A stretch of 64,000 nt of DNA from Flavobacterium enshiense (lineage in GTDB: Bacteria > Bacteroidota > Bacteroidia > Flavobacteriales > Flavobacteriaceae): positions 744,001 through 808,000 of the forward strand of contig NZ_CP090376.1 in NCBI RefSeq assembly GCF_022836875.1, read 5' to 3'. Below the pieces are notes generated by a model. The model saw nothing but the letters and a program-made list of their open reading frames with translations. It was not told the origin of the DNA and searched no databases. Numbering within the stretch: the stretch's first letter is position 1; every line of letters begins with the position of its first letter. This document shows positions 5,022 to 63,507 of the stretch, in pieces. Position numbers and translations under genes: made by a program.

Positions 5022-5750
5022 ATGATTCCTAAAAAGATACATTATTGTTGGTTTGGCAGAGGACCTTTATCAGATTTAACATTAAAATGTATAGAAAGCT
5101 GGAAAAAATTTCTTCCGGATTATGAAATAATCCAATGGAATGAGGACAATTTTGATGTTAATTCATATACTTTTTCCAAAGAAGCTTATGAAGCAAGGAA
5201 GTATGCTTTTGTTGCTGATATTTGCCGACTGGATGTGTTACACAAGTTTGGAGGTATTTATTTAGATACAGATATGGAACTTTTAAAACCTTTAAGCATA
5301 ATATCCCCAAATTTTATAAGTGGTTTTGAAGATTCAAAATATGTTGGTGCCGGAATAATAATATCTCCAAAAGAAGATAAGTTTGTTACATCAGTTTTGG
5401 AAAAATATAGGGAATTGAGTTTTAATAAGTGCATCGACAAGTTACGGGAGTATACGATTCCGAAAATTTTTACCGACGAACTTGTTAAGTATGGATTAAA
5501 ATTAGATAACACAAAACAAGTTTTAAATGATTCAGTTATCATTTATCCTTCCGAGTACTTTTATCCCCTGAACTATTTTACGGGAAAATTAAGTATCACC
5601 GAGAAAACAATGACAATACATCATTATGATTCATCTTGGATGTCTTCGGGACAGAAAACAATAATGAAATTAAAAATTTTTTTAATTAGTATATTTGGGA
5701 CTAGTATAATTTCAAAAATAATAAGAAGAATTAAGCGATATGCCCGTTAG
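5022..5750 (+). CDS. Glycosyltransferase with DXD sugar-binding motif (capsular polysaccharide type)
   Basis: This 242-residue protein begins MIPKKIHYCWFG, the hallmark of the glycosyltransferase family containing the sugar-binding DXD region (Gly_transf_sug, related to GT32 mannosyltransferases). The core motif is a run ending in G-G-I-Y-L-D-T-D, with the metal/nucleotide-sugar-binding DXD at D82-D84. It probably adds one sugar to the lipid-linked repeat unit on the cytoplasmic side. The gene starts at the base after the acyltransferase stop, and its end overlaps the polymerase gene by 11 bases, indicating translational coupling. Confidence 0.88.
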   Translation: MIPKKIHYCWFGRGPLSDLTLKCIESWKKFLPDYEIIQWNEDNFDVNSYTFSKEAYEARKYAFVADICRLDVLHKFGGIYLDTDMELLKPLSIISPNFISGFEDSKYVGAGIIISPKEDKFVTSVLEKYRELSFNKCIDKLREYTIPKIFTDELVKYGLKLDNTKQVLNDSVIIYPSEYFYPLNYFTGKLSITEKTMTIHHYDSSWMSSGQKTIMKLKIFLISIFGTSIISKIIRRIKRYAR

Positions 5751-60329: not shown

Positions 60330-60502
60330 TTTAAGAGACTGGTATTTAATCTAATAAAGATAAATAAATAATTCAGAAGTAGAAGATTATTCTTATATCA
60401 GGCATTTTTTATCGTTGAAAAACACCGGTTTGAAATTTCTCAATAAATGAATCCTGAAGTCTTTTGAGTCTGTTTTTTTAAGTAATTGATAATCAATTCG
60501 TT

Positions 60503-60531
60503 TTGAAATTATTTTAAAATGATTATTTTTG
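60503..60531 (+). promoter_or_regulatory. Promoter of the trhO-trhP-ferredoxin operon
   Basis: TTG (60503-60505), an 18-base spacer and TATTTTTG (60524-60531) match the Bacteroidota consensus. The start site would be near 60536. The 5' untranslated region of about 53 bases begins with a small inverted repeat (gaattct / agaattc, 60537-60557). Confidence 0.75.
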
Positions 60532-60588
60532 CACCCGAATTCTTCCATTTAGAATTCATAACATAATTTCTCACTTAAAGTTTATAGC

Positions 60589-61974
60589 ATGCAACTGTAT
60601 AACACCTTAAGCGCAGAAGAAAGAGCCGAGCTTATCGATCAAGCCGGAAAACAACGCCTTACGTTGTCTTTCTATGCCTATGCGCACATTGAAGATCCGA
60701 AAAAAATCAGAGACGATTTATTTATTGAATGGAACAAGCTTGATGCTTTGGGCCGTACTTATGTAGCCAAAGAAGGTATCAACGCACAAATGTCGGTTCC
60801 GGCCGAAAATCTTGAAGCCTTCCGTGATACTCTGGAAGCTTATGATTTCATGCAAGGCATCCGTCTTAATGTAGCTGTGGAGCACGATGATCATTCGTTT
60901 TTAAAATTAACAGTAAAAGTACGTCACAAAATTGTGGCCGACGGTTTAAATGACGAAACGTTCGACGTAACCAATAAAGGGGTTCACTTAAGAGCAAAAG
61001 AGTTTAATGCAATTTTGGATGATCCGAATACAATCGTGGTGGATTTCCGAAACCATTACGAAAGTGAAGTAGGTCATTTCAAAGGCGCGATTACCCCGGA
61101 TGTGGAAACCTTCCGTGAATCGCTTCCGATTATAAACGAACAGTTGAAAGACTTCAAAGAAGATAAAAATCTGGTAATGTACTGTACAGGAGGAATCCGA
61201 TGTGAGAAGGCTTCGGCTTATTTCAAACATCAGGGATTTAAAAACGTTTTTCAGTTGGAAGGCGGTATCATCAATTACGCCAAACAGATTAAGGAAGAAG
61301 GTCTGGAAAGCAAATTCATAGGTAAGAACTTCGTGTTCGACCACCGTTTGGGAGAACGTATCACCGAAGATATCGTTTCGCAATGCCACCAGTGTGGAAA
61401 ACCTTGCGACAACCATACGAACTGCGAAAATGATGCCTGCCACTTGTTATTTATCCAGTGTGATGAATGTAAAGAAGCGATGGACAACTGTTGTTCGACA
61501 GAATGTTTGGAAATTACGCATTTGCCTCTAGTGGAACAGATTAAACGCAGAAGAGGGGCACAGGTGGGGAACAAAGTCTTCCGAAAAGGAAAATCAGAAT
61601 CGCTGAAATTCAAGAAATCAGGCGAGTTAACCGATACTCCTTTGGCTAAAGCTGACCCGACCGTTAGCGAACTGGCGAAGCAAAAACCGAAAACCATCCG
61701 TCAGAAAATAAAAATAAAAAAGACGTTACTTGGTAAAGTTGAACATTACTACGTAAAAGCACAGATCGGGCTTTTCATTATCGAAAATCAGGAGTTGAAT
61801 CTTGGGGACAAAGTTTTGATTTCCGGACCAACAACAGGTAACGAAGAACTGGTTTTAGATAAAATGTTCGTTAACGGAACTGAAGCATCCGAGGCAAAAC
61901 CGGGTGATAAAGTGACATTTGCAGTGCCGTTCCGAGTGAGATTATCCGATAAATTATTTAAAATTATCAGCTAA
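60589..61974 (+). CDS. trhO: tRNA U34 hydroxylase TrhO (rhodanese type) with extra C-terminal domain
   Basis: This 461-residue protein has the YceA/TrhO architecture. An N-terminal acylphosphatase-like domain (Y-V-A-K-E-G-I-N-A-Q) is followed by a rhodanese domain with active-site Cys199 in C-T-G-G-I-R-C-E-K. A cysteine-rich zinc-like segment lies at about residues 265-305 (C-H-Q-C-G-K-P-C, C-D-E-C). TrhO makes 5-hydroxyuridine at tRNA position 34 using O2. Escherichia coli TrhO has about 350 residues. Here an added roughly 80-residue tail (about 380-461) is closely similar to the tail of the next gene product (see findings). The stop overlaps the next ATG by one base. Confidence 0.93.
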   Translation: MQLYNTLSAEERAELIDQAGKQRLTLSFYAYAHIEDPKKIRDDLFIEWNKLDALGRTYVAKEGINAQMSVPAENLEAFRDTLEAYDFMQGIRLNVAVEHDDHSFLKLTVKVRHKIVADGLNDETFDVTNKGVHLRAKEFNAILDDPNTIVVDFRNHYESEVGHFKGAITPDVETFRESLPIINEQLKDFKEDKNLVMYCTGGIRCEKASAYFKHQGFKNVFQLEGGIINYAKQIKEEGLESKFIGKNFVFDHRLGERITEDIVSQCHQCGKPCDNHTNCENDACHLLFIQCDECKEAMDNCCSTECLEITHLPLVEQIKRRRGAQVGNKVFRKGKSESLKFKKSGELTDTPLAKADPTVSELAKQKPKTIRQKIKIKKTLLGKVEHYYVKAQIGLFIIENQELNLGDKVLISGPTTGNEELVLDKMFVNGTEASEAKPGDKVTFAVPFRVRLSDKLFKIIS

Positions 61975-63215
61975 TGACCACTTCCGGAAGAATTGAACTA
62001 ATGGCGCCGGCAGGAAATTTCGAATCGATGCAGGCCGCTTTGGACAATGGTTGTGATTCCATTTATTTTGGAGTGGAGCAGCTGAATATGCGTGCGCGTG
62101 CCACGGTAAATTTCGTAATGGATGATTTACCGGAAATTGCCCGCCGTTGTAACGAAAAAAACGTCAGAACCTATCTGACTTTAAATACGATCATTTATGA
62201 TCACGATTTGTCGGTTGTGAAAACATTGCTTACCAAAGCCAAGGAATCAGGAATAACAGCGGTGATTGCTTCGGACCAGGCGGTTATCATGACGGCAAAA
62301 ACGATGGGGATTGAGGTGCATATTTCGACCCAGTTGAATGTTACGAACATTGAAACCGTAAAATTCTACAGTCTGTTTGCCGACACTATCGTATTGTCTC
62401 GGGAACTGAGTTTGCGTCAAGTAAAGAAAATTACCGATGAAATCGAAAGGGAACAGATCAAAGGACCATCAGGGAATCTGGTGGAAATTGAAATATTCGG
62501 ACACGGAGCTCTGTGCATGGCAGTTTCAGGGAAATGTTACCTGAGCCTGCATTCGCATAATTCGTCTGCAAACCGAGGGGCGTGCAAACAAAATTGCCGT
62601 AAAAAATATACGGTTATCGATCAGGAAAGCGGATTTGAAATTGAAATCGATAACGAATACATGATGTCGCCTAAAGATTTATGTACGATTGATTTTCTGG
62701 ATCAGGTAATTGATTCGGGCATCAAAGTACTGAAAATCGAAGGACGTGGAAGAGCTGCGGATTATGTGGCAACCGTAGTGAGAACCTACAGGGAAGCCAT
62801 CGATGCCTATTACGAGGGGACGTTTACCAAAGAAAAGATAAACACTTGGATGGAAGATTTGTCGACTGTGTATAACCGCGGATTTTGGTCGGGTTATTAC
62901 TTGGGACAAAAATTAGGAGAATGGTCAGACAATCCGGGTTCGAGCGCCACTCAGAAAAAGGTATATGTTGGTAAAGGAATGCATTATTTTCCGAAATCGG
63001 GTGTGGCCGAGTTCAAAATAGAGGCTTACGATATCAAAAAAGGCGATAAACTTCTGATTACAGGCCCAAGCACGGGAGCTCAGGAACTGGTTTTAGAAGA
63101 AATGCTGGTAAACGATCAGGATTCCGAAAAGGCAACCAAAGGCGACAGTTGTACGCTGAAAGTTCCGTTCCGTATCCGTTTGTCGGACAAGATGTATAAA
63201 ATTGTAGAGAACTAA
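61974..63215 (+). CDS. trhP: U32 family protein, probable TrhP tRNA hydroxylase
   Basis: This 413-residue member of the peptidase U32 family begins L-M-A-P-A-G-N-F-E-S-M-Q-A-A. It has the family cysteine cluster G-K-C-Y and R-G-A-C-K-Q-N-C-R at about 185-208, which in relatives holds an iron-sulfur cluster. The next segment, K-I-E-G-R-G-R-A-A-D-Y-V, is diagnostic. Escherichia coli TrhP (YegQ) is needed for O2-independent, prephenate-dependent 5-hydroxyuridine formation at tRNA U34, the same product as TrhO. The C-terminal domain (about 331-413) is the U32 C-terminal beta-barrel. Both ends overlap neighbours by one base. Confidence 0.9.
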   Translation: MTTSGRIELMAPAGNFESMQAALDNGCDSIYFGVEQLNMRARATVNFVMDDLPEIARRCNEKNVRTYLTLNTIIYDHDLSVVKTLLTKAKESGITAVIASDQAVIMTAKTMGIEVHISTQLNVTNIETVKFYSLFADTIVLSRELSLRQVKKITDEIEREQIKGPSGNLVEIEIFGHGALCMAVSGKCYLSLHSHNSSANRGACKQNCRKKYTVIDQESGFEIEIDNEYMMSPKDLCTIDFLDQVIDSGIKVLKIEGRGRAADYVATVVRTYREAIDAYYEGTFTKEKINTWMEDLSTVYNRGFWSGYYLGQKLGEWSDNPGSSATQKKVYVGKGMHYFPKSGVAEFKIEAYDIKKGDKLLITGPSTGAQELVLEEMLVNDQDSEKATKGDSCTLKVPFRIRLSDKMYKIVEN

Positions 63216-63445
63216 TGGTCATCATCACATTACAAAGAGACAAATGCATCGGTTGTAATTATTGTGTGGAAATGGCTCCGGCGCAGTTTCAGATGTCTAA
63301 AAAAGACGGGAAAACTGTGTTGCTGAAATCAGTTGATACCAAAGGATTCCATACTTTAAAATCGCCTGATCATTCTATCGTTGAAAATTGTGAACTGGCA
63401 GAAAAAGCCTGCCCTGTGAAAATAATTTCGGTAAAGGAAGTTTGA
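63215..63445 (+). CDS. Single-cluster 4Fe-4S ferredoxin
   Basis: This 76-residue ferredoxin has C11-I-G-C14-N-Y-C17 and a distal K-A-C-P near residue 67, together one [4Fe-4S] site. The intervening sequence is extended compared with two-cluster ferredoxins. It starts within the trhP stop (one-base overlap), so it is translationally coupled. An electron-donor role for the iron-sulfur enzyme TrhP is a reasonable inference. It is the last gene of the operon. Confidence 0.93.
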   Translation: MVIITLQRDKCIGCNYCVEMAPAQFQMSKKDGKTVLLKSVDTKGFHTLKSPDHSIVENCELAEKACPVKIISVKEV

Positions 63446-63471: not shown

Positions 63472-63507
63472 AAAACCTGTCCTGTATAAATACTGGGCAG
63501 GTTTTTT
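63472..63507. terminator. Rho-independent terminator after the ferredoxin gene
   Basis: aaaacctgtcc pairs with gggcaggtttt (one G-U) around a 12-base loop, with a T run. A-rich on the left, so it may also serve the convergent gene at 63542. Confidence 0.85.

Follow-up and report, generated by a model that had tools for sequence, protein, structure and literature searches.

A TrhP-like peptidase-U32 gene travels with a ferredoxin gene in a Flavobacterium trhO operon whose TrhO carries a U32-type C-terminal barrel

We analysed a 64,000-nucleotide stretch of the Flavobacterium enshiense genome (contig NZ_CP090376.1, positions 744,001 to 808,000; hereafter the window), in which trhO, a TrhP-like peptidase-U32 gene and a gene for a single-cluster 4Fe-4S ferredoxin form a three-gene operon. 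Across the genomes compared, the conserved unit was the U32 gene with the ferredoxin gene, not the trio, and TrhO was found to carry an extra C-terminal barrel related to that of the U32 protein encoded next to it. The gene layout, the domain homology, the single-origin fused tail, the tight U32-ferredoxin co-occurrence and the conserved catalytic residues were observed directly. On this basis, we consider it rather probable that the operon encodes two routes to 5-hydroxyuridine at tRNA position 34 (ho5U34), with the ferredoxin acting as partner of the iron-sulfur (Fe-S) route.

All three genes lie on the forward strand of the window, in a source genome that is a single contig of 3.25 Mb (G000 in the genome set): trhO (60589..61974), encoding a predicted O2-dependent tRNA U34 hydroxylase of 461 aa; the U32 gene (61974..63215; 413 aa); and the ferredoxin gene (63215..63445; 76 aa). 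Both the trhO/U32 and the U32/ferredoxin junctions consist of a TAATG, that is, a one-base overlap. An intrinsic terminator hairpin with a T-run was present at 63472..63505 (+; minimum free energy of -17.4 kcal/mol, z = -4.68), which was not among the matches of a simple terminator scan. This layout agrees with the three-gene operon with one-base overlaps behind a promoter proposed in the initial annotation of this DNA, and suggests a single transcript for the three genes. The same annotation held trhO and trhP to be unlinked in E. coli, as was confirmed by their K-12 coordinates (1,116,807 and 2,165,668, respectively). The trhO product scored 261.5 bits against the NCBIfam model NF001133 (cut-off 170) and exhibited the Pfam domains UPF0176_N, Rhodanese and Rhodanese_C, with the CXGGXR motif present as CTGGIR at residues 199-204; this motif read CTGGIR in 21 of the 22 aligned sequences and CTGGVR in the other one. 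The ferredoxin was assigned to Fer4_13 (PF13370; 43.9 bits, cut-off 24.5), its CxxCxxC ... CP pattern being C11-x2-C14-x2-C17 ... C66-P. The U32 gene was the sole match to PF01136 in the source genome.

Co-occurrence was determined in a phylum sample of 198 Bacteroidota genomes and in 25 same-genus genomes (34 once nine members of the phylum sample are added). We refer to the Bacteroidota U32 clade holding the window's protein as clade A and to the other Bacteroidota U32 genes as clade B; in the 198-genome counts, neither clade included long U32 matches of the RlhA type or a single split, weak match (G222), and the ferredoxin was searched by similarity to the window's own. Clade-A U32 genes were present in 28 of the 198 genomes, and clade-B genes in 65. 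The ferredoxin was detected in 25 of the 28 clade-A genomes and in none of the other 170 (Fisher p about 1e-28, a value that ignores relatedness). Within the genus, 11 of the 25 genomes carried the U32 gene and those same 11 carried the ferredoxin; among the 34, both were present in 16 and neither in 18. In 80 named loci, the ferredoxin gene was on the same strand as the U32 gene in 79 and within 566 bases of it in 78, the exceptions coming from Capnocytophaga (one ferredoxin gene 3.3 kb away in L218, none within the stretch read in L238). Moreover, the ferredoxin gene stayed near the U32 gene despite intervening genes or sequence (L218, L250). A dedicated redox partner, as the initial annotation had suggested, is thus well supported by distribution, its function being predicted.

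The trio as a conserved unit was rejected, since TrhO was linked in only 50 of the 80 loci and in two gene orders: fused TrhO-U32-ferredoxin in 40 loci, unfused TrhO-U32-ferredoxin in 5, and U32-ferredoxin-TrhO in 5. The remaining 30 loci had no TrhO within the stretch read, some of them being short contigs; of 17 such genomes that were searched whole, nine had an unlinked, unfused TrhO and eight had none (three Capnocytophaga, two Lutibacter, Planobacterium, Faecalibacter and Elizabethkingia). Conversely, 18 of the 34 same-genus genomes had TrhO and no clade-A U32. In 15 same-order genomes, we found U32 and ferredoxin without TrhO in six, TrhO without U32 in eight, both in none, and neither in one (two of these genomes were less than 90% complete, and the one with neither is 0.3 Mb in size). 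In the phylum sample, TrhO and a counted U32 occurred together in 36 genomes, TrhO only in 74, U32 only in 59 and neither in 29, indicating mutual avoidance (p 2e-6). When mapped on a TrhO tree (50 genomes), presence of the U32 gene required 9 changes of state (at least 7).

The TrhO of the operon resembles TrhO (YceA/YbfQ) of other bacteria in its UPF0176_N, rhodanese and Rhodanese_C domains, its CTGGIR motif, its NCBIfam score and its fold, the best fold match being the B. subtilis TrhO-tRNA complex 9j5o. However, it is about 110 residues longer, by a flexible linker and a U32_C-type beta-barrel (61717..61968, +; residues 377-460); E. coli TrhO, with 350 aa, has no such barrel domain in Pfam. 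The initial annotation had missed this U32-like domain. Residues 322-374, ahead of the barrel, form a low-confidence linker in the structure model and are probably disordered. The tail shared 49% identity with that of the U32 protein of the same operon (E 6e-24), and the barrel superposed at 1.2 Å on a solved U32 C-terminal domain. Such barrels are known from the Geobacillus U32 C-terminal domain (4he5/4he6) and from domain 2 of IF2/EF1A; here one is also found on a rhodanese-type hydroxylase. The fused barrel was present on TrhO in 34 of the 34 same-genus genomes and absent from TrhO in nine other same-family genomes with TrhO. In a tree of the tails (93 columns, midpoint root), the 33 sampled TrhO tails all shared a single branch (100/100), whose closest neighbours were 10 U32 tails from Flavobacterium; their placement among Flavobacterium U32 tails was supported at 88/86. 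By this tree, the TrhO tail of the Flavobacterium lineage is of single origin, and the C-terminal barrel of the U32 gene is likely to have been its source. TrhO was unfused in a metagenome-assembled genome titled Flavobacterium (L233), so the fusion is perhaps not found in every genome so named; the operon with fused TrhO was present in L223, titled F. johnsoniae strain CI04. Two loci (L039, G028; L040, G133) had a fused TrhO, 81% and 78% identical to that of the window, respectively, and neither U32 nor ferredoxin; these genomes carry the label of a different family within the order, and their TrhO was nested among same-genus rows in the TrhO tree.

The best NCBIfam model for the U32 protein was TrhP (NF011996), with 204.3 bits against a cut-off of 534; E. 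coli TrhP itself scored 875.4 bits. The protein aligned with E. coli TrhP over its full length and collinearly, C-terminal domain included (E 1.9e-39). The three essential residues of E. coli TrhP (E162/C170/C177) were kept and the four-cysteine motif was present: E173, C181, C188, C204 and C208 did not vary among the 23 sequences aligned, all of which had CX6CX15CX3C intact. Its own C-terminal barrel (62955..63206, +; residues 328-411), modelled alone, reached a predicted local distance difference test score of 93.2, and its best matches in the PDB were 4he6/4he5 (E 3e-5 to 4e-5, template-modelling score 0.78-0.86), followed by IF2. Profile searches were less informative: the U32 protein had no match to PF16325 (Peptidase_U32_C) at E 0.1, though E. 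coli TrhP matches this family, and comparison with the barrel profile was weak; a sequence search of the PDB with the barrel profile returned only weak rows, mainly translation factors (E 0.04 and above), and one with the U32 profile returned a single row, pyruvate kinase (E 0.25).

In the U32 tree, 49 Bacteroidota rows formed the clade holding the window's protein (100/99), which also stood apart from RlhA/UbiU. E. coli TrhP fell in a separate group of seven rows (100/97), together with Pseudoalteromonas YegQ, proteins of Sulfurovum, Thalassospira and Fusobacterium, and those of two Bacteroidota genomes (G044, G125). The split between the window clade plus TrhP group and RlhA/UbiU was weak (92/57). 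Long branches for UbiU, UbiV and TrhP marked the first tree (75 rows); in the rebuilt tree (63 rows), UbiV was dropped, six U32 sequences from plasmid records were added and clade A was thinned by 17 rows, UbiU being long-branched. Orthology with E. coli-type TrhP was rejected, given the protein's own Bacteroidota clade and its NF011996 score far below the cut-off. RlhA was rejected because the protein lacks DUF3656 and did not group with RlhA, and UbiU and UbiV were rejected on NCBIfam scores (160.7 bits for a cut-off of 440 and 54.8 for 275, respectively) and on the tree, in which UbiV was placed in the first version only. Judged from its sequence, the U32 protein is therefore TrhP-like by anatomy and not an E. 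coli-type TrhP by descent. The initial annotation was correct in placing a TrhO with a TrhP-like U32 protein and a ferredoxin; the E. coli trhP type that it had assumed was not recovered. Unlike trhP (yegQ) of E. coli, which has no neighbouring ferredoxin gene, the operon's U32 gene adjoins one, and unlike the UbiU/UbiV and TrhP1/TrhP2 pairs, O2-independent Fe-S U32 hydroxylases as we propose for the operon's protein, it is a lone U32 gene, whose partner gene encodes a ferredoxin and not another U32 protein.

Upstream of trhO, a Bacteroidota-type promoter, TTTTG-N18-TATTTTTG (60501..60531, +), was called from the Bacteroidota consensus TTG-N17-23-TAnnTTTG; by raw count, all 35 leaders compared had a TAnnTTTG no more than 180 bases ahead of trhO. 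It is followed by a leader hairpin, GAATTC-TTCCATTTA-GAATTC (60537..60557, +), with a covarying stem and a constant 9-base core, which folds as a 7 bp stem and a 7-base loop. Across 27 leaders, which make up 13 distinct rows, pairing held in 98.7% of the cells and the covariation score was 0.718, each value being reached in 0 of 500 shuffles; both sides changed in five of six pairs (8 of 500 shuffles), and slid versions scored lower. These leaders were picked by exact loop, hence the constancy of the loop; the stem was unselected, and relatedness inflates such shuffle tests. The entire leader folded only slightly better than its shuffles (z -1.78), of which 10 in 200 did as well. Rfam gave no family at the place and strand of the hairpin; its two weak hits lay on the opposite strand and were below their gathering scores. 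The core 11-mer occurred once in the 3.25 Mb genome (a control pattern, seven times), and 0-4 times per genome in 40 relatives, mostly no more than its reversed control. In the genus, 14 of the 25 genomes carried it just 5' of trhO; seven of these were among the 11 that have the U32 gene and seven among the 14 that lack it. As the stem and loop are the size of an anticodon arm, autoregulation may be offered as a testable guess. By eye, the sequence before the start codon, approximately CTTAAA-n-GTTTATAGC-ATG, was strikingly alike in most of the 35 trhO leaders. The promoter is preceded by a perfect palindrome, TTGATAATCAA (TTGAT-ATCAA; 60486-60496), of which two close relatives (L113, L114) had a longer variant; it was absent from the other 32 leaders. 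An O2-regulator box was rejected for this palindrome, which recurred, altered, in only 2 of the 34 other leaders.

We propose that the operon would provide two independent routes to ho5U34. TrhO would use O2, and the U32 protein, as a [4Fe-4S] member of the hydroxylase family that depends on prephenate and needs no O2, would form a unit with the ferredoxin. Hydroxylation of C-H to C-OH yields two electrons, so that the ferredoxin is as likely an acceptor as a donor in this respect. In our proposal, electrons would pass between it and the U32 cluster, and it would more likely accept the two from hydroxylation, one at a time, than feed electrons to the enzyme as suggested by the initial annotation; it would also represent the second Fe-S centre that the single-domain U32 protein is without. 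A redox-active [4Fe-4S] cluster is described for E. coli TrhP (PMC11138216), and more than one cluster is suspected to be required in enzymes of the UbiUV and TrhP1P2 type (PMC11574389). In the U32 literature, the direction and fate of the electrons are left open (PMC6747719, PMC11574389), with transfer to some further acceptor being posited for UbiUV by its authors (PMC6747719); a one-subunit U32 protein with a tied ferredoxin would fit this gap. The Flavobacterium-lineage TrhO would have gained, once, a copy of the U32 tail, a barrel resembling translation-factor domain 2, most likely for docking the same tRNAs; E. coli TrhO does not bind tRNA-Leu (PMC6599085).

Regarding the pathway, the probable next step is methylation of ho5U34 to 5-methoxyuridine (mo5U34), for which a TrmR-like methyltransferase with its gene outside the operon would be responsible, in analogy to B. 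subtilis (PMC6599085). The O-methyltransferase family PF01596 was detected in the source genome and in 39 of 40 relatives, and E. coli CmoB gave weak partial matches only, in 3 of the 40, which makes mo5U a better fit as end product than 5-carboxymethoxyuridine (cmo5U). In one locus (L177, G198), the clade-A U32 gene has no ferredoxin and is directly preceded by a type II chorismate mutase gene (5247-5606, -; PF01817, E 3e-16); chorismate mutase is the prephenate-making enzyme.

Several observations weigh against the two-route proposal with its ferredoxin partner. PF01596 is a broad family, so that a match alone does not make a TrmR ortholog, and the chorismate mutase neighbour was found in one genome only among 290 loci, a set with many overlapping or short entries. 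As the U32 protein is no TrhP ortholog by the tree, its substrate is inferred. TrhO had no barrel in 98 of the 110 genomes with TrhO, and the barrel is therefore not needed for TrhO function. Moreover, 20 of the 28 clade-A genomes also carried TrhO, and the two routes are thus not exclusive. The ferredoxin was not detected in three of the 28 clade-A genomes (G157, G198, G234), nor in the 5.2 kb read around one further clade-A gene (L273), and none of the 21 clade-B loci read, whose U32 proteins are similar in length, had it beside the U32 gene; it is thus not required across the U32 family. A very divergent ferredoxin could have escaped a search by similarity to the window's own.

These gaps in ferredoxin occurrence would also be expected if the ferredoxin were a general electron carrier, or a helper loading the U32 cluster, and no turnover partner; small single-cluster ferredoxins serve many enzymes. 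We find this rather unlikely, given that the ferredoxin was in none of the 170 genomes without clade-A U32 (none of 18 in the genus) and adjoined the U32 gene in both gene orders and despite insertions. A somewhat smaller chance is given to a different substrate for the U32 protein, for instance another tRNA site or, as for RlhA, 23S rRNA; it would then share the operon with trhO because both act in translation. It grouped with no characterised U32 protein in the tree, and as the lone U32 gene of the source genome it leaves the RlhA role otherwise unfilled there; several same-genus genomes hold a separate U32 protein of about 630 aa, one of which was placed in the tree and grouped with RlhA. 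Nevertheless, the absence of DUF3656, the full-length collinear match to TrhP, the lack of any of the 15 same-order genomes with both U32 and TrhO, and the acquisition of the U32 tail domain by TrhO all argue against this reading.

The initial annotation had read the operon as an aerobic/anaerobic switch, in which U32 and ferredoxin act only without O2 and TrhO only with it, under regulation within the operon. Three Capnocytophaga genomes, from a capnophilic genus, were U32-positive and TrhO-negative. A switch would likewise be in keeping with the E. coli enzymes, of which TrhO depends on O2 and TrhP on prephenate (PMC6599085). It nevertheless appears quite improbable: the layout suggests a single promoter for both genes and hence no switching between them, the palindrome recurred in too few leaders, and no regulatory evidence was found, with TrhO but no clade-A U32 in 18 of the 34 genus genomes and no TrhO in 8 of the 17 named genomes searched whole. 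In addition, members of the Weeksellaceae, which are generally regarded as aerobic, are among the U32-only genomes. The least credible alternative, and a very remote one, is that TrhO and U32 captured their C-terminal domains independently, without transfer from the adjoining gene. The short tail alignment, its midpoint root and the 88/86 placement would allow for it; the 49% identity between the tails, the single TrhO branch nearest to Flavobacterium U32 tails and the unfused TrhO of the nine same-family genomes speak against it.

Some further observations were made on these loci. A small open reading frame resembling a REP-associated transposase, presumably of the Y1 type, lay between trhO and the U32 gene in L008, L012, L063, L064 and L066; named johnsoniae-like loci had trhO-U32 gaps similar in size to those with this reading frame. 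In L043/L065 (G106), TrhO branched with G180 and U32 with G010, as though trhO had been replaced in place. The L273 record, labelled as a Phocaeicola massiliensis plasmid, adjoined G234 in the tree, far from the other Bacteroidales-like U32 genes, and may be mislabelled or carry a transferred gene. The ferredoxin search in plasmids gave no match.

A more far-reaching version of the two-route proposal can be put forward only tentatively. The ferredoxin may be the long-missing electron partner of a one-subunit U32 hydroxylase, replacing the second U32 subunit of UbiUV and TrhP1P2 and taking away the electrons of prephenate-dependent tRNA hydroxylation without O2; TrhO may have taken both the tRNA-docking barrel of U32 and its tRNA set, and the leader hairpin may be bound by one of the two enzymes, as binders of anticodon arms, in feedback. 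If true, the tRNA set acquired by TrhO would permit repeated loss of U32 and ferredoxin. In the literature searched, which took in few subscription journals and no preprints, no description of the ferredoxin link or of the fusion was found, and O2-free hydroxylation by U32 enzymes and its electron fate are given as open in earlier work (PMC6747719, PMC11574389, PMC6599085). A ferredoxin travelling with one U32 clade provides a named, soluble partner of 76 residues that is testable in vitro. The TrhO-U32_C fusion amounts to a naturally occurring exchange of a domain between unrelated enzymes with a presumed common target nucleotide, which would allow tRNA selection to be separated from chemistry, and the dual-pathway idea would extend to the Bacteroidota with a different U32 clade.

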